Virus record (IMG/VR): IMGVR_UViG_3300023184_004954
Span: 1-64,000 of that record
Source: a virus
Strand: one strand, 5' to 3'
Length of the DNA stretch: 64,000 nt
The translations under genes and the position numbers were made by a program. Of the stretch, positions 3,146 through 27,538 are shown piece by piece. Under the pieces are notes generated by a model that was not told the DNA's origin, did not search any database, and worked only from the letters and a program-made list of their open reading frames with translations. The stretch's first letter is position 1. Each line of letters opens with the position of its first letter.

Positions 3146-3157
3146 AGATTGTGGAGG

Positions 3158-3556
3158 TGGAGCAGCGCGGATTCGAACCGCGGTCTTTCCTACTCTAAAA
3201 TAAATGACTACACGTTTATTCAATTAGTTCTCAACTGACAAATAGGAAGTTACAGATTAAGATAATCACTTCCAAAAATCCCCAAACCGGATTTTCAAGA
3301 GCCGTCTGATGTGCTCCAACACTCTACAGTGGTGTTACACTGTGAGCACTTGTGTTCCTAGGCGTATGTGCACCGGCCCGAATGTCGTACTCTACTAATT
3401 AAGCAGCTACAACGCTTTCTTCTCTGATAAGACCAAGAGTAGAAAGTTTAGAAATGGTTTTGCCATTTAAAGTTTGAATCATATTATAAGGAGTTAATCC
3501 TGCTCCTACGTGCCACTTACCCTTGATGTCTGAAATCAAATGCCTATACCTGCCCC
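3158..3556 (-). ncRNA. ssrA: tmRNA (trans-translation RNA)
   Basis: A phage-encoded tmRNA of about 399 nt. The 5' GGGGCAG pairs with 3' CTGCTCC (3159-3165) to form the acceptor stem, with A as discriminator; CCA is not fully encoded. A perfect T arm is present (CGCGG, loop TTCGAAT, CCGCG; about 3166-3182). An AGGAG/CTCCT hairpin near the expected first pseudoknot precedes an in-frame tag reading frame that ends REESVVAA followed by TAA (3399-3401). The resume codon is most likely GGC at 3462-3464, about 93 nt from the 5' end, giving a tag of about 21 residues starting GKTISKL. tmRNA with SmpB rescues stalled ribosomes and tags the product for proteolysis. No SmpB is seen here, so host SmpB would be used. 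Confidence 0.92.
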
Positions 3557-5777: not shown

Positions 5778-6305
5778 ATGGCAAGAATAATAAGATTAAC
5801 AGAATCAGATATGAGTCGTTTGGTTAAAAGAGTTATAAAAGAACAGAGGGATGAAGAAATAGCTCAAAAAATTGAGAATATTGTTGACTCTCCCAAAGTT
5901 GAAAATCATCTTGAACAAATTTTAAACAACATGGGAGAAGATGAAATTGAAGACATTAAACAAATGTTAACAAATTTGGGTATAGACGAAAATAGTAGTA
6001 TTCAAGATATACATAAAAGGGTTCTTCAGTATTCTGCATTAATGGGTTTACATGACTATGAATCAGATGGAGAAATGATTGAAGATTATGTAAATTCTAA
6101 TAAGGGAAAAACGGAAGAAAAAAATCCTAAACAAAAAGTTGCTGAAATTTTACATTCTATTGGTGCTGGAAATATTGCAGCTTGGGGTGGTGTTCCAGCG
6201 GCAATTGCAATTGGTTCTGCGACAGGAATGCCAATGGGGTTTGCAATAAGTTGGGGAGTAACAGGATTATTAATGGGGTTGGCACATTTAATGGAGAAAA
6301 AATAA
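5778..6305 (+). CDS. Tagged protein with C-terminal hydrophobic glycine-rich region
   Basis: A 175-aa protein. Residues 1-22 are the tag (MARIIRLTESDM, then RLVKRVIKE) ending at Glu22. Residues 23-120 are acidic and helical. Residues 128-170 are hydrophobic and Gly/Ala-rich (IGAGNIAAWGGVPAAIAIG, then ISWGVTGLLMGLAHL) and could form one or two membrane helices or a glycine zipper. The function is unknown; tag plus hydrophobic region suggests a packaged protein that inserts in a membrane after ejection (inference). It is the first of three consecutive genes with near-identical terminator, promoter and tag blocks. Confidence 0.75.
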   Translation: MARIIRLTESDMSRLVKRVIKEQRDEEIAQKIENIVDSPKVENHLEQILNNMGEDEIEDIKQMLTNLGIDENSSIQDIHKRVLQYSALMGLHDYESDGEMIEDYVNSNKGKTEEKNPKQKVAEILHSIGAGNIAAWGGVPAAIAIGSATGMPMGFAISWGVTGLLMGLAHLMEKK

Positions 6306-15722: not shown

Positions 15723-15730
15723 GTATTTAT
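15723..15730 (+). promoter_or_regulatory. Putative late promoter, 5 nt before terminase ATG
   Basis: GTATTTAT, 5 nt before the ATG at 15736. Confidence 0.55.
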
Positions 15731-15735
15731 AAGAT

Positions 15736-17496
15736 ATGACAAAAGAACAATTAATAATTGAGGTTACAAAATGTATGAGAGATACTCCATACGCATTAAG
15801 AACATACTTACAAACATTTGACAATACTGTTTCCAAGTATGTTCCGTTGGATTTATTCCCAGACCAAATTACCTTAATTAATGATTATGAAAAATACAAT
15901 GAAAATATTGCATTGAAGTATAGACAAGCGGGTGTATCTACAGTAACCGCCGCTTGGGCATCAAAAAGACTCGCATTTGCCAAAAAAAGTAAGCCTGAAA
16001 AAATTCTAATTATTGCAAATAAACTTGATACTGCCGTTGAGATGGCAAATAAAATTAGGGGGTTTACAGAACAATGGCCGGCTTGGGTTGGTATCGGGTT
16101 TTCCGCAGAAAAGAACGCAGCAAGACATTTTAAGTTAAATAATGATTGTGAGGTTAAAGCCGTTGCAACATCAAAAGATGCCCTTCGTGGATATACCCCA
16201 ACAATATTGATATTTGATGAAGCCGCATACATTGAAGCTGATGGTGATTTTTGGTCTGCTTGTATGGCATCACTATCTACGGGTGGTAAGGTAATTGTTA
16301 TCTCAACACCAAACGGATATGACCCAATTTACTATGAAATATACGACCAAGCATTAAGAAAAATGAATGATTTCAAAATTTCTGAAATGTTTTGGTGGAA
16401 AGACCCAAGATATACCAAAGATTTATATGTTGTTAAAACTCCTGATATTATACATTTTTTCTTAAATAGAAATGAATATACCGAAGATTGTGTTATTGAT
16501 TTATCCATAGATAACCCATATGAAAGAAATTTTGATGAATTAAAAAAATATATCTCTGAGGGATATAAGCCGAGCTCATCTTGGTATGAGAGTATGGTTA
16601 AAAAGTTGAAATTTGATAAGAGAAAAGTGTCTCAGGAGTTGGAAAGTAACTTTTTAGGTTCTGGTGACAACGTGTTTGACTCAGATTTGATGCAGAACAT
16701 ACTTAAGAACCAAATTAAGGAACCCCAAGCTAAAATGATGGGTGGAAGTCTGTGGATATGGAAAGAACCTGAAATGGGACACAAATATGTTATGGGTGTG
16801 GATGTATCAAGAGGAGATTCTGAAGATTTTTCATCTATTGAGATTATTGATTTTGATGAAAGGGAACAAGTATTAGAATATGTGGGAAAAATCCCACCAG
16901 ATGTATTAGCAGAAATTGCTTATAAGTGGGGGACTTTGTATAACGCATATTGTGTAACAGATTTAACAGGTGGAATGGGGGTTGCGACAGCAAGAAAACT
17001 ACAAGAATTAGGATATAAAGGATTATATGTTGATAATGTTGAGGTTCAAAATAAATGGAAGTGGGACCAAAAACTTAATGAAAAAATTCCTGGAATAAAT
17101 TTTAACAATAAAAGGGTTCAAATTATTGCGTCTTTTGAAGAAGCAATAAGACATGATTTCAAAATATATTCAACAAGATTATATAATGAAATGAACACCT
17201 TTATATTTGTAAATGGAAGACCTGACCATCAGAAAGGACATCACGATGATTGTATTATGTCAATATCAATGGCATTATATGTCGGAGAAAAATCATTTCA
17301 ACAACTTACAAAGAATTTAAACCATACAAAGGCTATGATAAATTCTTGGGCAACCACAATAAATGAAAATAAAAATACTTCAGACTTCTTCAACCCATTA
17401 GTACCTCAAGGGAACACTAAGACAGGACATTATCCAAGCCAAGGACCGGGAAAAGAAGACTATCAAAAGTATGGATGGTTATTTGGAGGTAAATAA
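15736..17496 (+). CDS. terL: Terminase large subunit (gp17-like)
   Basis: A 586-aa packaging motor and nuclease. The N-terminal ATPase has a deviant Walker A (RQAGVSTVTA, about residues 57-66) and Walker B ILIFDEAAYIE. The C-terminal RNase H-like nuclease has the acidic motifs MGVDVSRGDSEDF, VTDLTGG and HHDDCIMS. It translocates genomic DNA into the prohead at the portal and cuts the concatemer. Its position immediately before the portal gene fits T4-like order, although the sheath and tube genes that sit between them in T4 are absent from this window. Confidence 0.95.
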   Translation: MTKEQLIIEVTKCMRDTPYALRTYLQTFDNTVSKYVPLDLFPDQITLINDYEKYNENIALKYRQAGVSTVTAAWASKRLAFAKKSKPEKILIIANKLDTAVEMANKIRGFTEQWPAWVGIGFSAEKNAARHFKLNNDCEVKAVATSKDALRGYTPTILIFDEAAYIEADGDFWSACMASLSTGGKVIVISTPNGYDPIYYEIYDQALRKMNDFKISEMFWWKDPRYTKDLYVVKTPDIIHFFLNRNEYTEDCVIDLSIDNPYERNFDELKKYISEGYKPSSSWYESMVKKLKFDKRKVSQELESNFLGSGDNVFDSDLMQNILKNQIKEPQAKMMGGSLWIWKEPEMGHKYVMGVDVSRGDSEDFSSIEIIDFDEREQVLEYVGKIPPDVLAEIAYKWGTLYNAYCVTDLTGGMGVATARKLQELGYKGLYVDNVEVQNKWKWDQKLNEKIPGINFNNKRVQIIASFEEAIRHDFKIYSTRLYNEMNTFIFVNGRPDHQKGHHDDCIMSISMALYVGEKSFQQLTKNLNHTKAMINSWATTINENKNTSDFFNPLVPQGNTKTGHYPSQGPGKEDYQKYGWLFGGK

Positions 17497-17504
17497 GTAT
17501 TTAT
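17497..17504 (+). promoter_or_regulatory. Putative late promoter motif
   Basis: GTATTTAT just after the terminase stop, 30 nt before the portal ATG at 17535. Confidence 0.4.
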
Positions 17505-17534
17505 ATTATTAATTCATTGAATTAAATTTATATT

Positions 17535-19391
17535 ATGGCTGAAAATAAAAAAGAAAATATGACGATTTGGCAACGGTTAGGTCAAACATTTGGTCCCAAT
17601 TCCTTATTAGGACAAGATTACCCTTCGTTTAGTCTTGATAAGAAAGAATTATTAAGAACCAAAAGTAAGGAAGAATACGAAAAAGAAAAACTTCAAGCAC
17701 AACAAACTTTCTATTTAGGACAACAATGGGCTAAAGTAGAAAACAATTTATACTCTCAAGCAGTTTATTATGAACCATCAAGGTTATCTTCCACATATGA
17801 TTATGAAAGTATGGAATATACACCAGAAATTTCAGCAGCTTTAGACATTTATGCAGAAGAGTCAACAACAGTAAATGAAGATGGGTTTATGTTGCAGATT
17901 TATTCAGAATCAAAAAGAATTAAATCAGTATTGGCAGATTTATTTAATAATGTTTTAGATATTAATACCAATTTACCAATGTGGACAAGAAATACTTGTA
18001 AATTTGGTGATAATTTCGTTTATCTTAAACTAGACCCTGAAAAGGGGGTTGTTGGTTGTCAACAATTACCAAATATTGAGATTGAAAGAAAAGAGGTTGG
18101 TATGGGAGATAGAAGTCCTGTTGATTTAGGAAAAACAGAGGCAAAAAAAGCATTAACTTTTACTTGGAAAAATAAAGCAATAACATTCCAATCTTGGGAA
18201 ATCGCTCACTTTAGGTTATTAGGTGATGATAGAAAACTTCCTTATGGTACTTCAATGTTAGAAAAGGCAAGAAGAATTTGGAAACAATTATTACTATCTG
18301 AAGATGCAATGTTAATTTATAGAACATCAAGAGCACCTGAAAGAAGAATCTTTAAAGTATTTGTTGGAAATATGAATGATGAGGATGTTGAACCTTATGT
18401 TAATAGGGTTGCCGACAAGTTCAAAAGACAACAAGTTGTTGATAAAAATACAGGTAATGTTGATATGAGGTTTAATCAGATGGCTGTTGACCAAGATTAC
18501 TTTGTTCCCGTTAGAGACCCAGCGGCACCAAGTCCAATTGAGACTTTGCCAGGTGCAACAAACTTATCAGAGATTGCGGATATTGAATATATTCAAAAGA
18601 AACTATTAACCGCATTAAGAGTTCCGAAAGCCTTCTTAGGATTTGAAGAAGTTGTTGGAGATGGTAAAAATTTATCATTACAGGATATTCGTTTCGCAAG
18701 AACAATCAATAGAATACAAAAAAGTATGATACAAGAGCTAAATAAAGTGGCAATCATACATTTATTTTTATTAGGTTTTGAAGAGGAAATATCAAACTTT
18801 ACAATAGGGCTAACAAACCCATCTACACAAGCAGATTTGTTAAAAATTGATGTTTATAAAGAAAAAATTCTACTTTATAAAGATTTAGTTTCTGACCCAG
18901 GAAATGGTATTCAAGCAGTATCATCTACTTGGGCTAAAAAACATATCTTCGGATTCTCTGATGAAGAAATAAAAACAGACTTATTACAACAAAGATTTGA
19001 AAGAGCCATCGGTGAAGAATTGAAGGCAACCGCAACAATAATAACTAAAACAGGAATATTTGATACCATAGATAAATTATATGGTAATAATGCCAGCGGT
19101 GGTACACAAACAGGTGGAGCAACACCATCAGGAGAAGAAACCGCACTACCATCATTTGGTGGAGAAAGTGGGGGAGCACCACCACCAGCCCCTCCAGGAG
19201 GAGAAGGGGGAGAACCTCCAGCAGAAGCGCCGCCAGCAGGGGGAGAAGTTACACCTGAATCTAAAATAGATAAATTAAATATTTTGGTGGAAAATAGGTT
19301 TATTGAAGGTGCACAAATTTTAGAATTTAAAACAGGACAAAATTCTTTAGATGAAATGGATTTAGAATTAGATAAGTTACTAAACTCGTAA
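17535..19391 (+). CDS. Portal protein (gp20-like)
   Basis: A 618-aa protein matching T4-like portals in size and content: an N-terminal domain with YTPEISAALDIYAEES, a central clip/stem region with RIWKQLLLSEDAMLIYRTSRAPERRIF, and KLLTALRVPKAFLGFEE. It forms the dodecameric DNA gate at the capsid vertex. The C-terminus carries an extra Gly/Pro/Ala/Glu-rich linker of about 50 residues followed by a short acidic helix, not typical of T4 gp20. Confidence 0.92.
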   Translation: MAENKKENMTIWQRLGQTFGPNSLLGQDYPSFSLDKKELLRTKSKEEYEKEKLQAQQTFYLGQQWAKVENNLYSQAVYYEPSRLSSTYDYESMEYTPEISAALDIYAEESTTVNEDGFMLQIYSESKRIKSVLADLFNNVLDINTNLPMWTRNTCKFGDNFVYLKLDPEKGVVGCQQLPNIEIERKEVGMGDRSPVDLGKTEAKKALTFTWKNKAITFQSWEIAHFRLLGDDRKLPYGTSMLEKARRIWKQLLLSEDAMLIYRTSRAPERRIFKVFVGNMNDEDVEPYVNRVADKFKRQQVVDKNTGNVDMRFNQMAVDQDYFVPVRDPAAPSPIETLPGATNLSEIADIEYIQKKLLTALRVPKAFLGFEEVVGDGKNLSLQDIRFARTINRIQKSMIQELNKVAIIHLFLLGFEEEISNFTIGLTNPSTQADLLKIDVYKEKILLYKDLVSDPGNGIQAVSSTWAKKHIFGFSDEEIKTDLLQQRFERAIGEELKATATIITKTGIFDTIDKLYGNNASGGTQTGGATPSGEETALPSFGGESGGAPPPAPPGGEGGEPPAEAPPAGGEVTPESKIDKLNILVENRFIEGAQILEFKTGQNSLDEMDLELDKLLNS

Positions 19392-19413: not shown

Positions 19414-20118
19414 ATGACATTTGGACAAATAAAATCTATAATTGAAAATCAATTAATAGAATCATATACAGACGGTAAAGAATTTAAAAAATCTTTACAA
19501 GGATTCAAACAAGATGTTTTGAATAATAACACCATATCTAAGATTTATTCTCTTTATGATGATTTATCAACACCACAAGGTTTATCTGAACAAGACGCAT
19601 CAGAATTCCTAAATGAAGGTATTTCTTTACTTCAAACTTTAATTACTAAAATAAAGATTCCAAAAGGCCCTATTACGGAGATTAAAAACAATTATCAATC
19701 AATAGATGAGTTGGTATATGTTACAGGTAAAAACATTCAGTTAACTGACAGATTAAATAATAAAAAACAAATAATTAAAACTCTAACTCAATCAAAAAAA
19801 GAAATTAAAGAATCTGTAAATATTCCTTTAAGTTCTATGGTTAAGATTGGTAATCAAAAAATTAATGAGTATTTAGAAAATATGGATGAATCCTCTAAAA
19901 AAGAATTATTTGATATCATCAAAGAAGATACAAAATCTTTAAAGATGAAATTTCAAACTCTTAAAGAAGACGCTTCAACAAAATTAAATATCTTAATTGA
20001 AAATGAAAAAGACAATGAGGTTAAATCTAAATTAACAGAAACTATTTCAAAAATAAAATCTGAGAAGTTTGACCAAATGAATTATTTGAAATTGAAAGAA
20101 TTAGTTGAGTCTCTTTAA
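19414..20118 (+). CDS. Putative head core protein
   Basis: A 234-aa helical, lysine/glutamate-rich protein between portal and protease, the position of T4 gp67/gp68 core proteins. The N-terminus IKSIIENQLIESYTD contains two I/L-x-E protease-like sites. No sequence family recognised, so the core role is inferred from position and composition. Confidence 0.6.
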   Translation: MTFGQIKSIIENQLIESYTDGKEFKKSLQGFKQDVLNNNTISKIYSLYDDLSTPQGLSEQDASEFLNEGISLLQTLITKIKIPKGPITEIKNNYQSIDELVYVTGKNIQLTDRLNNKKQIIKTLTQSKKEIKESVNIPLSSMVKIGNQKINEYLENMDESSKKELFDIIKEDTKSLKMKFQTLKEDASTKLNILIENEKDNEVKSKLTETISKIKSEKFDQMNYLKLKELVESL

Positions 20119-20300
20119 GATTTTTTCATTTGTTCAACGTATCTTGCTTTAAGGATACGGTTCCTTTGTTTTACAGATTTTTTTATAAATTCTTTTCTTC
20201 CATTAAGTGATTGATTTTGTTTAGTTTTAATCACTTTAGACTTAAGAACCTTTAAAGATTTCTCAATATTTTCCCCTTTTTTTATTTCTACTATTATCAT
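20115..20300 (-). CDS. rpsU: Ribosomal protein bS21
   Basis: A 61-aa protein with the bS21 pattern: MIIVEIKKGENIEKSLK, then LKSKVIKTK, a Leu-x-x-Arg turn (LNGRKEF) and a basic tail (SVKQRNRILKARYVEQMKK). The GENIE segment and the K/R spacing resemble Bacteroidota bS21. bS21 sits in the 30S platform beside the 16S 3' end and, in Bacteroidota, helps hide the anti-Shine-Dalgarno sequence. No Shine-Dalgarno precedes this gene, and a variant motif (ATATTTAA) lies upstream. It is on the strand opposite to the head genes, inserted between two of them, with a 4-nt 3' overlap. It probably exchanges into host ribosomes. Confidence 0.88.
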   Translation of the reverse strand: MIIVEIKKGENIEKSLKVLKSKVIKTKQNQSLNGRKEFIKKSVKQRNRILKARYVEQMKKS

Positions 20301-20385
20301 ATATTTTTAAATATAAAAAAAAATTTGATATTGTGTTTATTTAGCTATATTTTTATAAAAATAAACTATAATAATATGACTATTA

Positions 20386-20814
20386 ATGAAAAAAGGAAAA
20401 AGTGTAAAACTTAACTTATCAAATTCTTTCAAATCCATCTATGGAACTGTGGACTCCAAAAACTTAAAATCAATTTACATTAATATTCAATCTTGGGTCT
20501 CTCCAAGAGAAGAAATGGAAAACTGGAATCGGATTGTGTGTAATTTCAGTAGAGAACTTAAACACACAGTATACGATTCAATAGACACTTCTATCTTTAC
20601 CCCAAAATCAATTGTTGACTTAGACTTACGAACAAGTGGAATTCTTTACGGAAAAAAATCATTTTTAAATTTAGAAATTAATTTATTCTCAGATAAAGAA
20701 TTGGACTTTAAATCAAATTACGTTAAAAACTCTATAAAAACAATAATAAAAAACATTCAAGATTCTAACATTTCCTCAAACAAATACTTTGAATTTACCC
20801 TCACAAAAAAATAA
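20386..20814 (+). CDS. Hypothetical head-region protein
   Basis: A 142-aa basic protein, MKKGKSVKLNLSNSFKS at the start, with alternating polar/hydrophobic beta-prone stretches and a final ISSNKYFEFTLTKK. No domain recognised. Lies between bS21 and the prohead protease. Confidence 0.6.
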   Translation: MKKGKSVKLNLSNSFKSIYGTVDSKNLKSIYINIQSWVSPREEMENWNRIVCNFSRELKHTVYDSIDTSIFTPKSIVDLDLRTSGILYGKKSFLNLEINLFSDKELDFKSNYVKNSIKTIIKNIQDSNISSNKYFEFTLTKK

Positions 20815-20849: not shown

Positions 20850-21557
20850 ATGAAAAAACTAAGATTATTAGAAGCAAATGAGGTTGGTTACGGACTTTTA
20901 GTTGAGATGGACGCAGGTTATGTTTCACCAAAAGACGAAATAAATGCAAAAATACTTCAAGAATCCACTAAAATGGATTATAGAAATCCTTTTGAATTTT
21001 ACGCCGTATTACAAAAATATGACACCGCAAATAGAAACGGTAGATTTTATCCCGAAAGGATATTAAAGAGAGAAAGTGAAAAATATAAGCAAACAATCGC
21101 CAAAGGTTTATCAACATCAGAACTTAATCACCCTGAATCATCTTTAATTGATTTGGATAGAGTATCTCATATAATCACAGAGATTTGGTGGGATAAAAAT
21201 ATTCTAATGGGAAAGTTAAAATTATTAACCTCACCAGGATTTCACGAAAGAGGAATAGTTTCAACAAAGGGTGACCAAGCGGCAAATCTTATGAGACAAG
21301 GTGTTACTTTAGGTATATCCTCAAGAGGTGTTGGCTCACTTAAAAAGATTGGAGAAAAAAATGAGGTTCAAGATGACTTTGAATTAATTTGTTTTGACTT
21401 AGTTTCCTCTCCGTCTACACCAGGAGCATATTTGTTTACCGATGCAAATGATAGAGACAAATATGAAGAAAATTTAGAAGAAGAAAAAAAATCAAGTGGT
21501 GGAGTAGAGAAATCAGTTGACTTAATGAAAAAATTATCCGATTATTTAGAAAAATAA
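20850..21557 (+). CDS. Prohead protease (gp21-like)
   Basis: A 235-aa serine protease of the phage prohead (herpes assemblin-like) fold. Candidate catalytic residues are His in ELNHPESS (about residue 94) and Ser in LGISSRGVG (about residue 158), and the following FELICFDLVSSPSTPGA strand fits the family. It cleaves scaffold, capsid and internal proteins after Glu during head maturation. Its own N-terminus (KLRLLE|AN) offers a self-cleavage site. It precedes the scaffold and capsid genes as in T4. Confidence 0.9.
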   Translation: MKKLRLLEANEVGYGLLVEMDAGYVSPKDEINAKILQESTKMDYRNPFEFYAVLQKYDTANRNGRFYPERILKRESEKYKQTIAKGLSTSELNHPESSLIDLDRVSHIITEIWWDKNILMGKLKLLTSPGFHERGIVSTKGDQAANLMRQGVTLGISSRGVGSLKKIGEKNEVQDDFELICFDLVSSPSTPGAYLFTDANDRDKYEENLEEEKKSSGGVEKSVDLMKKLSDYLEK

Positions 21558-21955: not shown

Positions 21956-23467
21956 ATGCAAAAAAATAAATCATTAGTTGAAGAGGCACTTATTCAAATG
22001 AAACAAGTTGAAGAAGCTATCTCTGAAAATGCAAAAGGAATACTTGCTTCTACTATGAAGGAAGAAATCAATCAATTAGTAAAAGAGTCTCTTTCTGAAC
22101 AAGATGATGAAGAAGACCAAACAGATGTAGACGTAGATACTGACACAGACAATGTTGATGTTGATATGGATGCAGATAATGAAGATGAAGTTGAAATGGA
22201 TATGGACGCAGACACTGATACAGATGATGTTGATGTAGACGCTGATGTTGACATGGATATGGATTCTCAACCACCAATTGATTTAACTGACGCATCTGAT
22301 GAAGAAATTCTTAAGGTGTTCAAAGCAATGGGCGAGAATGACGGTATTATTGTTAAAAAGAATGGCTCTGATGTCACTCTTAAAGATAGTAATAACGATT
22401 CTGAATACATTGTAAGATTAGGTGAATCTATGGATGAATTAAATCAAGGAATGATGGAATACTCTGAAGAAGAAGATGACGACCAAGTTCAAGGTGTAAT
22501 AGACGCAATTTTTTCTAATAACAATTCTAAAAAAGACTCTTATAGAGATTCTGATGATGAAGAAATGGACGAAGAAGAAGGAGTTATGTACGAAATTGAA
22601 ATGGACGAAGAATCCGATGAAGAAGAAATGGATGAAGAAGAAACAATCTATGAAATTGAAATGGATGAAGAATCTGACGAAGAAGAATTAGATGAAGAAT
22701 CTGATGAAGAAGAATTAGATGAAGAATCCGATGAAGATGAAATGGATGAAGAAGATTCTTGGAGTATGGATGAAGCATACAGTCGCAAAAAACTCAAAAA
22801 AGGTATCAAACCAAAAGGTGTCGGAATAGGTAAACCAAAATTTGAATACAAGAAAACAACCGGTGGTTTCAAAGAAAGTATGAAACAAGGTGCAAAATCT
22901 GTAGGAACTGGTAAACCAAAATTTGACTACAAAAAAGGTGAGAACATGGGTGGTACTAATAAAATGGTTAAAAAAGTTGAAACTAAAGAAGCCGCAAGAA
23001 CTATGGGTATGGGCCCAAGAAAAGGTGGTGGACTTAGAAAAGGCATTACCCCCAATAGAAACCTTAAAGAGGAAATTCTACAACAAGAAGTTAGTATGTT
23101 GAGACAGAAAAATGAAGAATATAGAAAAGCTCTGAATACTTTCAGAGAAAAGCTAAACGAAGTTGCAATTTTTAATTCCAACTTAGCTTACGCCACAAGA
23201 TTGTTCACAGAACATTCAACAACTAAAAAAGAAAAAATAAACATTCTTAGAAGATTTGATGATGTTGAAACATTAAAGGAATCTAAAAGCCTTTATAAAT
23301 CAGTAAAAGACGAATTATCTAAGATTGAAAGTAAACCAATGAACGAATCAGTTGAAAACAAATTGAATAAAAATGTTTCTACAGGTTCTTCAACAACTCT
23401 TATTGAATCAAAAACTTATGAAAACCCTCAATTTATGAGAATTAAGGATTTGATGTCTAAGATGTAA
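21956..23467 (+). CDS. Prohead scaffold/core protein (gp22-like)
   Basis: A 503-aa protein directly before the capsid gene, the position of T4 gp22. An N-terminal helix (EEINQLVKESLSE) ends in an L-S-E site and is followed by a long Asp/Val-rich repeat (DVDVDTDTDNVDVDMDAD, residues about 58-105) and Glu/Asp/Ser repeats (DEESDEEEMDEEE). Two basic repeats, GKPKFEYKK and GKPKFDYKK, follow around residues 290-325, then a helical C-terminus ending FMRIKDLMSKM. An acidic core with a helical capsid-binding tail is what a scaffold should look like; homology to gp22 cannot be shown by eye. Confidence 0.72.
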   Translation: MQKNKSLVEEALIQMKQVEEAISENAKGILASTMKEEINQLVKESLSEQDDEEDQTDVDVDTDTDNVDVDMDADNEDEVEMDMDADTDTDDVDVDADVDMDMDSQPPIDLTDASDEEILKVFKAMGENDGIIVKKNGSDVTLKDSNNDSEYIVRLGESMDELNQGMMEYSEEEDDDQVQGVIDAIFSNNNSKKDSYRDSDDEEMDEEEGVMYEIEMDEESDEEEMDEEETIYEIEMDEESDEEELDEESDEEELDEESDEDEMDEEDSWSMDEAYSRKKLKKGIKPKGVGIGKPKFEYKKTTGGFKESMKQGAKSVGTGKPKFDYKKGENMGGTNKMVKKVETKEAARTMGMGPRKGGGLRKGITPNRNLKEEILQQEVSMLRQKNEEYRKALNTFREKLNEVAIFNSNLAYATRLFTEHSTTKKEKINILRRFDDVETLKESKSLYKSVKDELSKIESKPMNESVENKLNKNVSTGSSTTLIESKTYENPQFMRIKDLMSKM

Positions 23468-23500: not shown

Positions 23501-25330
23501 ATGGGAGCATTATTAGAAAGCGGTCTTGTTGGTAACATCGGGTTAAAACACCTTAAAGTTATTAAAGAAGACACTATTAACAAATGGGACAAATTAGGGT
23601 TCCTTGAAGGTCTTAAAGGCCACCTAAAAGAAAACGTAGCTCAGCTATATGAAAACCAAGCATCATTTTTAATCAATGAAGCATCATCAACATCTGATAC
23701 AGGTGCATTTGAAACAGTTGTGTTTCCAATAGTTCGTAGAGTATTCTCTAAACTTTTGGCTAATGACATCGTTTCTGTACAAGCTATGAACTTACCAATC
23801 GGTAAATTGTTCTTCTTCGTACCTAACATTCAGTCTTATGAAGTTGATACCGCAACAAATGGTCAACATTATTCTCCATACGGAGCACCTGGTGCAACAA
23901 ATGGTCAAACACCAGATTCAGGTTATTTACCAGCAAATACAGGTAAAAATCTTTATGACAGATTTTATGAAGGTACTGAACCAGCTTTAGACCCTCCAGG
24001 TTTGTTTGATTATTCTAAAGGACAATTCTCAGCAATTACCTCAACTTCTTCTACAAGCCCAACTAAAACTTCTACAGCAGTTTGGAATGGTGCTACTGGA
24101 AACTTAATAGCTTCAGGATATCCTGCATCAACAGAATTCAGAAAAGTATTGATAACTATGTCAGGTTTTGCATCTGATGGTGCTGGTAAATTAATCGGTC
24201 CTGATGGTCAAGTAATGGATAACGAAGCTTTCTTAACTGATTTGACAATTCAGGCAACTGCTACAGGTTGTTTCTCAGGAAAAACTAGTGGTAATTTATT
24301 ATTTAGAGTAGTAACTCAAAGATATGGTAGAGGTATTGTTCAATACGGTACTAATAACCAATCAACAAGTTTTGCATCAACAGGTAATGGTGGTTCTTTT
24401 GATAACATATGTGATGCCGACGGAATTATATATCTTGAAGTTGATTTACAAGTACCTTGTACTGTAGGTTCTAACTCTCTTGATGGTTATTCTGGTACTA
24501 CAACCTCAGGTCCAGGTAGTTCAGCACCAAACGCTGATTTCGTATCAACTTACAGAGTTTACAAAACACTTGAGTTTGAAGATAAAATTGGTGAGGTTTC
24601 TTTTGACCTTCAATCTGTAACAGTTTCTGTTACTGAAAGAAAATTAAGAGCTCAATGGTCTCCTGAGATGGCTCAAGACGTTGCTGCATTCCACAACATT
24701 GATGCTGAAGCTGAATTAACAGCTTTATTGTCTGAACAAGTTGCTGCGGAAATTGACCGTGAAATCCTTCGTGATTTACGTAAAGGCGCCGCTTGGAACT
24801 TACGTTGGGATTACAATGGTTGGAAAAGACTAGGAAATCAAGCAGTTCCATACACTCAAAAAGATTGGAACCAAACTTTGATTACCGCAATCAACCAAAT
24901 TTCAGCTCAAATCCATAAGTCTACCTTAAGAGGTGGTGCTAACTGGATAGTTGTTTCTTCTGAAATCAGTGCTATTATGGATGATTTGGAGTATTTCCAC
25001 GTATCAAACGCAGCACCTGAACAAGACCAATACAACATGGGTATTGAAAGAGTAGGTACTTTGGCTGGTCGTTACCAAGTTTATCGTGACCCTTACTTCC
25101 CTGCTAACCAAGTGTTAATGGGACACAAAGGAACGTCATTGTTAGATACAGGTTACATCTACGCACCGTACGTACCTCTACAATTAACTCCAACTATGTA
25201 CAATCCGTTCAATTTTACTCCAATTAAGGGTATTATGACGAGATACGCAAAAAAGATGGTCAACAATCGCTTTTACGGAAGAATTACTGTAGATGGTGTT
25301 AGAACATTTGATTTAAGAGAATTGAGATAA
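23501..25330 (+). CDS. Major capsid protein (gp23-like)
   Basis: A 609-aa protein. The propeptide contains NKWDKLGFLEGL and LYENQASFLINE, and cleavage is predicted after Glu60 (LINE|ASST), matching the T4 gp23 site (FLTE|A). Then IVRRVFSKLLANDIVSVQAMNLPIGKLF matches T4 VRR...GVQPMN...G. Residues 90-400 hold a long Gly/Thr/Ser-rich insertion domain, and the C-terminal HK97-fold part includes AELTALLSEQVAAEIDREIL and VYRDPYFPANQVLMGHKG. It also has VIKE at residues 20-23. It forms the capsid shell. A strong terminator follows. Confidence 0.95.
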   Translation: MGALLESGLVGNIGLKHLKVIKEDTINKWDKLGFLEGLKGHLKENVAQLYENQASFLINEASSTSDTGAFETVVFPIVRRVFSKLLANDIVSVQAMNLPIGKLFFFVPNIQSYEVDTATNGQHYSPYGAPGATNGQTPDSGYLPANTGKNLYDRFYEGTEPALDPPGLFDYSKGQFSAITSTSSTSPTKTSTAVWNGATGNLIASGYPASTEFRKVLITMSGFASDGAGKLIGPDGQVMDNEAFLTDLTIQATATGCFSGKTSGNLLFRVVTQRYGRGIVQYGTNNQSTSFASTGNGGSFDNICDADGIIYLEVDLQVPCTVGSNSLDGYSGTTTSGPGSSAPNADFVSTYRVYKTLEFEDKIGEVSFDLQSVTVSVTERKLRAQWSPEMAQDVAAFHNIDAEAELTALLSEQVAAEIDREILRDLRKGAAWNLRWDYNGWKRLGNQAVPYTQKDWNQTLITAINQISAQIHKSTLRGGANWIVVSSEISAIMDDLEYFHVSNAAPEQDQYNMGIERVGTLAGRYQVYRDPYFPANQVLMGHKGTSLLDTGYIYAPYVPLQLTPTMYNPFNFTPIKGIMTRYAKKMVNNRFYGRITVDGVRTFDLRELR

Positions 25331-26668: not shown

Positions 26669-27511
26669 ATGAAGCAAACAAAAGTTTACAATGAGTTAGT
26701 ACAAAAGATGAGAGGATTTTTCCTTGATAAGGGATTTATTGAGGTTCCGACTCAGTCAAGATTATCTATCCTTGCTGCGTGTGAGAACCCCCATTCAGTT
26801 GCAACGTTCAATTATAATGGTGAGGTGTGGCCGTTACCTCAGACGGGACAGATGTGGTTAGAATATGAGCTATTAAAGAATCCTGAGTGGGATGGTGTGT
26901 TTTGTATTTCCACATCATACAGGGATGAGAAGGAACCGATACCGGGTAGGCATGAAAAAATCTTTCCGATGTTTGAATTTGAGAGTAAGGGTAATATGAT
27001 AGATTTAGAAAAATTGGAATTTGAGTTATTGCGATTTTTGGGGTTTGAGAGAGCGGTTGTGGTTGATTATGAAAGTGTTTGTAAGGAATATGGTGGGGTT
27101 GAGATTCTTGAGGATGAGCATGAGAGTAGGATGTGGAAAGAGAAGGGTAATGTGGTATCATTGCAAAACTTTCCGTATAGGACATCTCCATTTTGGAATA
27201 TGAAACATACTTTTGGTGGGACATTTAATAAGATTGATGTTATATTATTTGGTCAGGAGACTATTGGTTCTGCGGAGAGAAGTTGTAATCCTGAGGAGAT
27301 GAGAAAAATGTTTTATGAGATATCTGATGGTGGGTATGCGAGTAAATTATTTGAATTATTTGGTAAGGAGAGGGTTGAGAAGGAGTTAGATGAATTTTTA
27401 AGTTTTGATTTCTTTCCTAGGTTTGGTGGTGGTATTGGTATGACTAGATTGGCTAGGGCATATGAGATAAATAAGAGCACTTTGGAGATTATGAAGAAAG
27501 AGTTGGTATAA
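26669..27511 (+). CDS. Class II aminoacyl-tRNA-synthetase-like core (AsnRS/AspRS or asparagine-synthetase type)
   Basis: A 280-aa protein. It shows motif 1-like GFIEVPTQS, motif 2 SYRDEKEPIPGRHEKIF with FEFE, a Gly-x-x-x-Ile-Gly-Ser-Ala-Glu-Arg segment, and motif 3 GGGIGMTRL with the ATP-binding arginine. Similarity is to the AspRS/AsnRS/LysRS subclass, but the OB-fold anticodon domain is absent. Paralogs of this shape include archaeal-type asparagine synthetase and EpmA. It could make asparagine, modify a protein, or charge a tRNA fragment; the substrate cannot be assigned. The gene uses GAG/AGG/GGG codons much more than its neighbours, suggesting separate acquisition. A-rich leader, no late motif. 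Confidence 0.75.
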   Translation: MKQTKVYNELVQKMRGFFLDKGFIEVPTQSRLSILAACENPHSVATFNYNGEVWPLPQTGQMWLEYELLKNPEWDGVFCISTSYRDEKEPIPGRHEKIFPMFEFESKGNMIDLEKLEFELLRFLGFERAVVVDYESVCKEYGGVEILEDEHESRMWKEKGNVVSLQNFPYRTSPFWNMKHTFGGTFNKIDVILFGQETIGSAERSCNPEEMRKMFYEISDGGYASKLFELFGKERVEKELDEFLSFDFFPRFGGGIGMTRLARAYEINKSTLEIMKKELV

Positions 27512-27525
27512 ATTCATTTTAAATA

Positions 27526-27533
27526 GTATTTAT
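27526..27533 (+). promoter_or_regulatory. Putative late promoter, 5 nt before ATG
   Basis: GTATTTAT, 5 nt before the ATG at 27539. Confidence 0.55.
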
Positions 27534-27538
27534 ATTAT

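Follow-up and report, generated by a model that had tools for sequence, protein, structure and literature searches.

In Bacteroidota, ribosomes ignore Shine-Dalgarno (SD) sequences because ribosomal protein bS21 helps to hide the anti-SD, and the host controls its own bS21 through this same hiding. The Flavobacterium johnsoniae gene for bS21, rpsU, is autoregulated by way of an extended SD that is read by ribosomes lacking bS21, and the substitution Y54A raises the translation of reporters with strong SDs, as described by McNutt et al. 2023 (PMC9976891), the discussion of which also mentions phage copies of bS21. Suitable F. johnsoniae strains, with an rpsU'-gfp reporter, with Y54A or with rpsU depletion, already exist.

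Phage-encoded bS21 has been described on several occasions. In Chen et al. 2022 (PMC9723584), a reverse-strand bS21 is placed within a block of terminase large subunit (TerL), portal, protease and major capsid protein (MCP) genes in Bacteroidetes phages, so that a reverse-strand bS21 among head genes is already published. The same source reports an aromatic residue at position 54 and high late transcription, and proposes substitution of the phage protein into ribosomes. Its expression values, from Lake Rotsee metatranscriptomes, are mapped bases per gene, and because the passages that describe them mention no strand treatment, the late expression may in part reflect reads of the other strand. 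For a pelagiphage copy, that of HTVC008M, entry into E. coli ribosomes was demonstrated, with activity reduced to about 5% (Mizuno et al. 2019, PMC6375957).

In this study, we examine a bS21 gene in a window of 64,000 nucleotides, the first part of a 67-kb IMG/VR virus record (IMGVR_UViG_3300023184_004954). The addition to published work is the contrast in SD content between phage and host bS21 genes; a literature search, with supplements and most subscription papers outside its coverage, returned no published comparison of this kind.

Results

Identity and descent of the phage bS21

The window encodes bS21 on its minus strand at positions 20115..20300, in an open reading frame of 61 codons that opens with ATG. 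The product matches Pfam Ribosomal_S21 (PF01165) over positions 2-52 of 55 with 33.6 bits (E 3e-8, curated cutoff 27), and this is the sole match to the family across the 67-kb record. With NCBIfam TIGR00030 the score is 17.3, under the cutoff of 28.95, which marks the protein as a divergent member. The top relative of solved structure is the F. johnsoniae bS21 (7jil, E 2e-9), with which it is colinear without gaps over residues 1-60 and has Tyr54 in register; a second Bacteroidota-type bS21 of solved structure, 9i5v, matches with E 5e-9, and identity to the Flavobacterium protein is 45%. An AlphaFold model made with 22 relatives in the input predicts helices at 11-33 and 40-59 (pLDDT 85), and all 15 Foldseek matches of this model in the PDB are bS21 chains, none reaching E < 0.001 for so short a chain. 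The first-pass annotation had called the protein a bS21 with Bacteroidota-type features. The Pfam score above cutoff, the alignment with the host protein, the retained Tyr54 and a position among Bacteroidia bS21s confirm that assignment.

In a tree of 63 columns that included 67 phage sequences, the phage bS21s form one clade (support 100) on a long branch. This clade is nested among Bacteroidia-type sequences that carry Tyr54, at a moderate support of 81-84 from only 63 columns. The gene is intact in 47/47 distinct phage versions, 45 of which have Tyr and 2 His at residue 54. Residues 19-30 (LKSKVIKTKQNQ) are nearly invariant among the phage proteins and differ from those of hosts at seven positions (19, 21, 23, 24, 27, 28 and 30), divergence in this N-terminal part having been noted earlier by Chen et al. 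(PMC9723584). The codons for this segment vary synonymously, which, given the near-invariant residues, indicates purifying selection on the protein. An overlapping DNA element conserved at the nucleotide level was also considered for the segment and was rejected on account of the same codon variation. The gene was probably captured once, from a Bacteroidia host, by an ancestor of the window phage's family. The HTVC008M copy, phage-encoded like that of the window, differs in having been acquired from a Pelagibacter-type (alphaproteobacterial) host.

Locus layout and head-gene neighbors

The bS21 gene lies among genes for head formation that are encoded on the plus strand. On one side are the terminase large subunit (15736..17496; PF03237, phrog_2), the T4-type portal (gp20; 17535..19391; PF07230, 255 bits) and, in the gene slot after the portal, the convergent neighbor p234 (19414..20118). 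On the other side are the divergent neighbor p142 (20386..20814), which is also found in relatives that lack bS21, the prohead protease (20850..21557; PF03420, phrog_207), an acidic protein without a family match that is scaffold-like by position and composition alone (21956..23467), and the major capsid protein Gp23 (23501..25330; PF07068, 243 bits), with a DUF4494 protein also downstream of bS21. The terminase, portal, protease and capsid genes around it bear out the initial placement of bS21 inside the head gene cluster. The accompanying description of the gene as antisense to the head genes holds for the strand and fails for overlap, as bS21 sits between p234 and p142 and shares 4 nt with p234, confined to the stop codons.

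Relatives of the window bS21 are encoded on more than 500 IMG/VR stretches, from which 80 loci were retained for comparison of layout; the neighbors, place and orientation of bS21 are identical in 80/80. Relatives in such number and a place so fixed indicate that the open reading frame did not arise by chance. A confident model was obtained for p142, with no significant PDB match, and tblastn searches of GenBank phages with p142 and of the GenBank phage set with the window bS21 returned no match.

The closest described arrangement is that of the Bacteroidetes phages of clades a-e in PMC9723584, which likewise encode on the reverse strand a small bS21 whose residue 54 is aromatic. In those phages and in the window alike, the gene lies between two hypothetical genes inside the set of TerL, portal, prohead protease and MCP. 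They are large phages with probable Bacteroidetes hosts, and the window phage, likened to them by description, is no different in kind. Microcystis phage Mel-JY01 (PP395634) has an annotated S21, RpsU, directly after the prohead protease, and its portal is 40% identical to that of the window. Unlike the window gene, however, this RpsU lies on the same strand as the head genes, in another slot, and was not matched by the window bS21 in tblastn; it is probably a separate capture.

Shine-Dalgarno content of phage and host bS21 genes

SD strength was measured as the energy with which the 16S 3' tail pairs with the 25 nt that precede a start, and an extended SD was defined as <= -13 kcal/mol. Host rpsU genes were collected by a genome scan with the F. 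johnsoniae protein as query; the scan queried with the phage bS21 found no host relatives. An extended SD precedes 80/80 Flavobacterium rpsU genes (median -22.2 kcal/mol) and 0/36 non-redundant phage bS21 genes, whose median of -1.7 kcal/mol is no better than that of shuffled sequence. The start region of the window gene (20301..20325, minus strand) has +1.0 kcal/mol and no SD. Beside the colinearity over 60 residues and the shared Tyr54, the window bS21 therefore differs from Flavobacterium rpsU (7jil; PMC9976891) in the missing extended SD, in the phage-only segment 19-30 and in its opposite-strand context within a head cluster.

None of the 78 window genes reaches -13 kcal/mol against the anti-SD, and so starts without an SD are the rule in this phage and that of bS21 is not a special feature. 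The early observation that most window genes lack an SD is upheld by these values. The suggestion made with it, that the phage gene would escape a host feedback that uses an SD, gains from the contrast of 80/80 with 0/36 when read with rpsU autoregulation as described in PMC9976891. A further idea, that the phage protein reprograms start selection through SD recognition, is not supported: Tyr54 is kept, and with phage genes and most host genes SD-less, SD recognition discriminates nothing except host rpsU. Discrimination between phage and host messages on the basis of the SD is not expected.

In a host sample from the wider phylum, for which 30 nt upstream were used, 58/90 genes pass the cutoff of -13, and among those with Tyr or His at residue 54 the proportion is 17/28. 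The feedback argument thus fits Flavobacterium-like hosts and not all hosts. At least two SD-less exceptions with Tyr or His at 54 (L235 and L242) sit in genomes with further bS21 copies. These two are additional bS21 genes without an extended SD, in host genomes G111 and G126, and have a divergent segment (KRKHRNVK...); they are possibly derived from phages or paralogues for specific conditions.

Upstream motif and expression signals

Near the ATG of the window bS21 is the heptamer TATATTT (20309..20315, minus strand), a candidate phage promoter element. The core ATATTT occurs upstream of bS21 in 34/36 relatives, as compared to 6.1 in shuffles, with a median of 6 nt from its end to the ATG. 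Related forms are found upstream of the portal, terminase, p234 and protease genes, and the capsid gene is mostly without one. In the window, TATTTATA has 27 copies, 17 of which are in the sense direction and no more than 40 nt ahead of a start (0.7 expected for random starts); the corresponding count for its reverse complement is 4. Copies just upstream of starts are found, for example, at 15724-15731, 17498-17505 and 27527-27534. TATTTATA is a candidate promoter element of the phage. Its reverse complement, TATAAATA, is the core of the T4 late promoter.

Several copies of TATTTATA end only 3-4 nt ahead of an ATG, and for that reason those messages may be leaderless. The bS21 mRNA would likewise be nearly leaderless if its transcript begins right after the TATTT-type element. 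A scan of the bS21 region for classical sigma-70 promoters found no excess, and a search of the 67-kb record for a sigma factor (PF04542) found none. Elsewhere in the window, three consecutive genes at 5778, 6402 and 6960 share a near-identical upstream block of 60 nt that contains GGTGGGGTTTTTT and AGATATTTATTTATAAAA.

In some relatives, a terminator-like hairpin followed by a T-run lies within bS21 at about codons 40-50, on the strand opposite the gene. We compared each of 47 genes with 100 synonymous-codon shuffles. The hairpin is in the best 5% of shuffles for 20 of them (2.35 expected) and beats all shuffles in 13, and the signal falls in about three lineages; genes with the embedded hairpin include those at L002 1511-1696, L012 524-709, L026 7998-8183 and L033 3294-3485. 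Judged from sequence, such a hairpin would end the convergent p234 transcript. The converse search, for a terminator of bS21 lying within p234, gave 2/30, which is nothing beyond chance. The embedded antisense terminator, strong in some relatives, is absent from the window gene and is treated here as a side result.

Relatives without bS21 and other translation-related genes

Among 73 p142 loci that extend to the upstream side, near-duplicates counted, bS21 is absent at 26. The distinct bS21-less loci form one supported clade (99) beside the bS21-bearing phages, and in a portal tree rooted with very distant outgroups (immuto, Mel-JY01) they are nested inside the bS21 phages. A single loss in this clade, rather than a gene never gained, is the likeliest history, not proven since those outgroups are so distant. 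Across the whole of the 309-kb bS21-less record (G156), nothing matches PF01165. The p234-p142 gap measures 267-287 nt with bS21 and about 138 nt in the bS21-less clade, where it contains a strong intrinsic terminator and then TTGACA-N17-TATATT ahead of p142. This combination of terminator and sigma-70-like promoter is seen at L315 3870-4001 and similarly among L289-L331.

The persistence of both p234 and p142 in bS21-less relatives indicates that neither neighbor is an obligate partner of bS21, and a role of this kind for p142, which had been considered, was dropped. A clade without the gene, including the 309-kb record, also means that bS21 is dispensable in some settings.

The phage encodes a tmRNA at window positions 3155-3556 on the minus strand (Rfam RF00023, 76.6 bits, E 5.6e-28), with the tag GKTISKLSTLGLIREESVVAA given by ARAGORN. 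A tmRNA scores over cutoff in 7/12 checked records of the family, the bS21-less 309-kb record included, and is a second ribosome-related gene in the bS21 phage family. On the plus strand at 26669-27511, the window encodes a protein of 280 residues whose catalytic domain is of the class II aminoacyl-tRNA synthetase type (PF00152, 46 bits). It comes closest, weakly, to AsnRS/AsnA and is too short for an added anticodon-binding domain. It belongs to phrog_29758 (E 5e-99), a phage family without an assigned function.

Discussion

The retained Tyr54 and the absence of an extended SD lead us to think it probable, with some reserve, that the window gene supplies a working bS21 that replaces or supplements the host copy, keeps the anti-SD hidden and evades the SD feedback of the host. 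Its expression would coincide with that of at least some head genes, and late in infection the phage protein would take the place of host bS21 on the 30S platform or add to it. Its C-terminal half with Tyr54 would keep the 16S 3' tail tucked away, a state that should favor SD-less messages, namely nearly all phage and host genes. Host rpsU is translated mainly by ribosomes lacking bS21, by way of its extended SD, and ribosomes filled with the phage protein would hold this translation down. The SD-less phage gene would continue to be translated even when ribosomes are full, and a preference for phage messages might be exerted through the frozen residues 19-30. In a stronger version, which we advance tentatively as quite possible and short of probable, the phage gene is made at any ribosome state and its occluding product switches off SD-dependent rpsU translation; if this is true, the bS21 site would pass to the phage through host autoregulation itself, with no host protein destroyed. 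Entry into the ribosome need not mean useful translation, as E. coli ribosomes with the pelagiphage bS21 were left about 5% active (PMC6375957).

Phage bS21 could instead merely top up a loosely held protein late in infection, once host rpsU expression has stopped, with neither selectivity nor regulatory escape. Such a role would agree with bS21 being essential to F. johnsoniae and open to exchange (PMC6375957, PMC9976891), with the lack of SDs common to all window genes and with the dispensability of bS21 in one clade; yet the frozen phage-only segment suggests more than a plain host copy, and we consider simple supply rather unlikely. That segment, near the mRNA path, is central to the specialized ribosomes proposed by Chen et al. 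(PMC9723584), in which phage bS21 makes ribosomes prefer phage messages through residues 19-30. The seven differences from hosts within it and the purifying selection on the protein speak for this proposal. However, our comparison identified no phage-specific feature in start regions for bS21 to read, and SDs are missing from phage genes much as they are from host genes, so that we judge the proposal unlikely as an account of this locus.

A function away from the ribosome, such as packaging into the head, a possibility raised in PMC9723584, or binding to a phage RNA, would suit the fixed place of the gene among head genes at 80/80 loci. It would not require Tyr54 and the other bS21 positions that are kept, and p234 and p142 persist without bS21; we regard such a function as very unlikely. 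That the gene is a neutral relic of capture is hardly credible, even with its loss in one clade, given 47/47 distinct genes intact, near-invariant residues despite codon variation and a fixed place across a diverse family.

We return to a bS21 that probably serves on the ribosome while escaping host feedback. A natural comparison for its role is provided by the sister clade that lacks bS21 and retains both neighbors. The phage bS21 is encoded without the control signal of the host gene, and if the phage copy takes the site, ribosome heterogeneity would here be clearly exploited by a virus.
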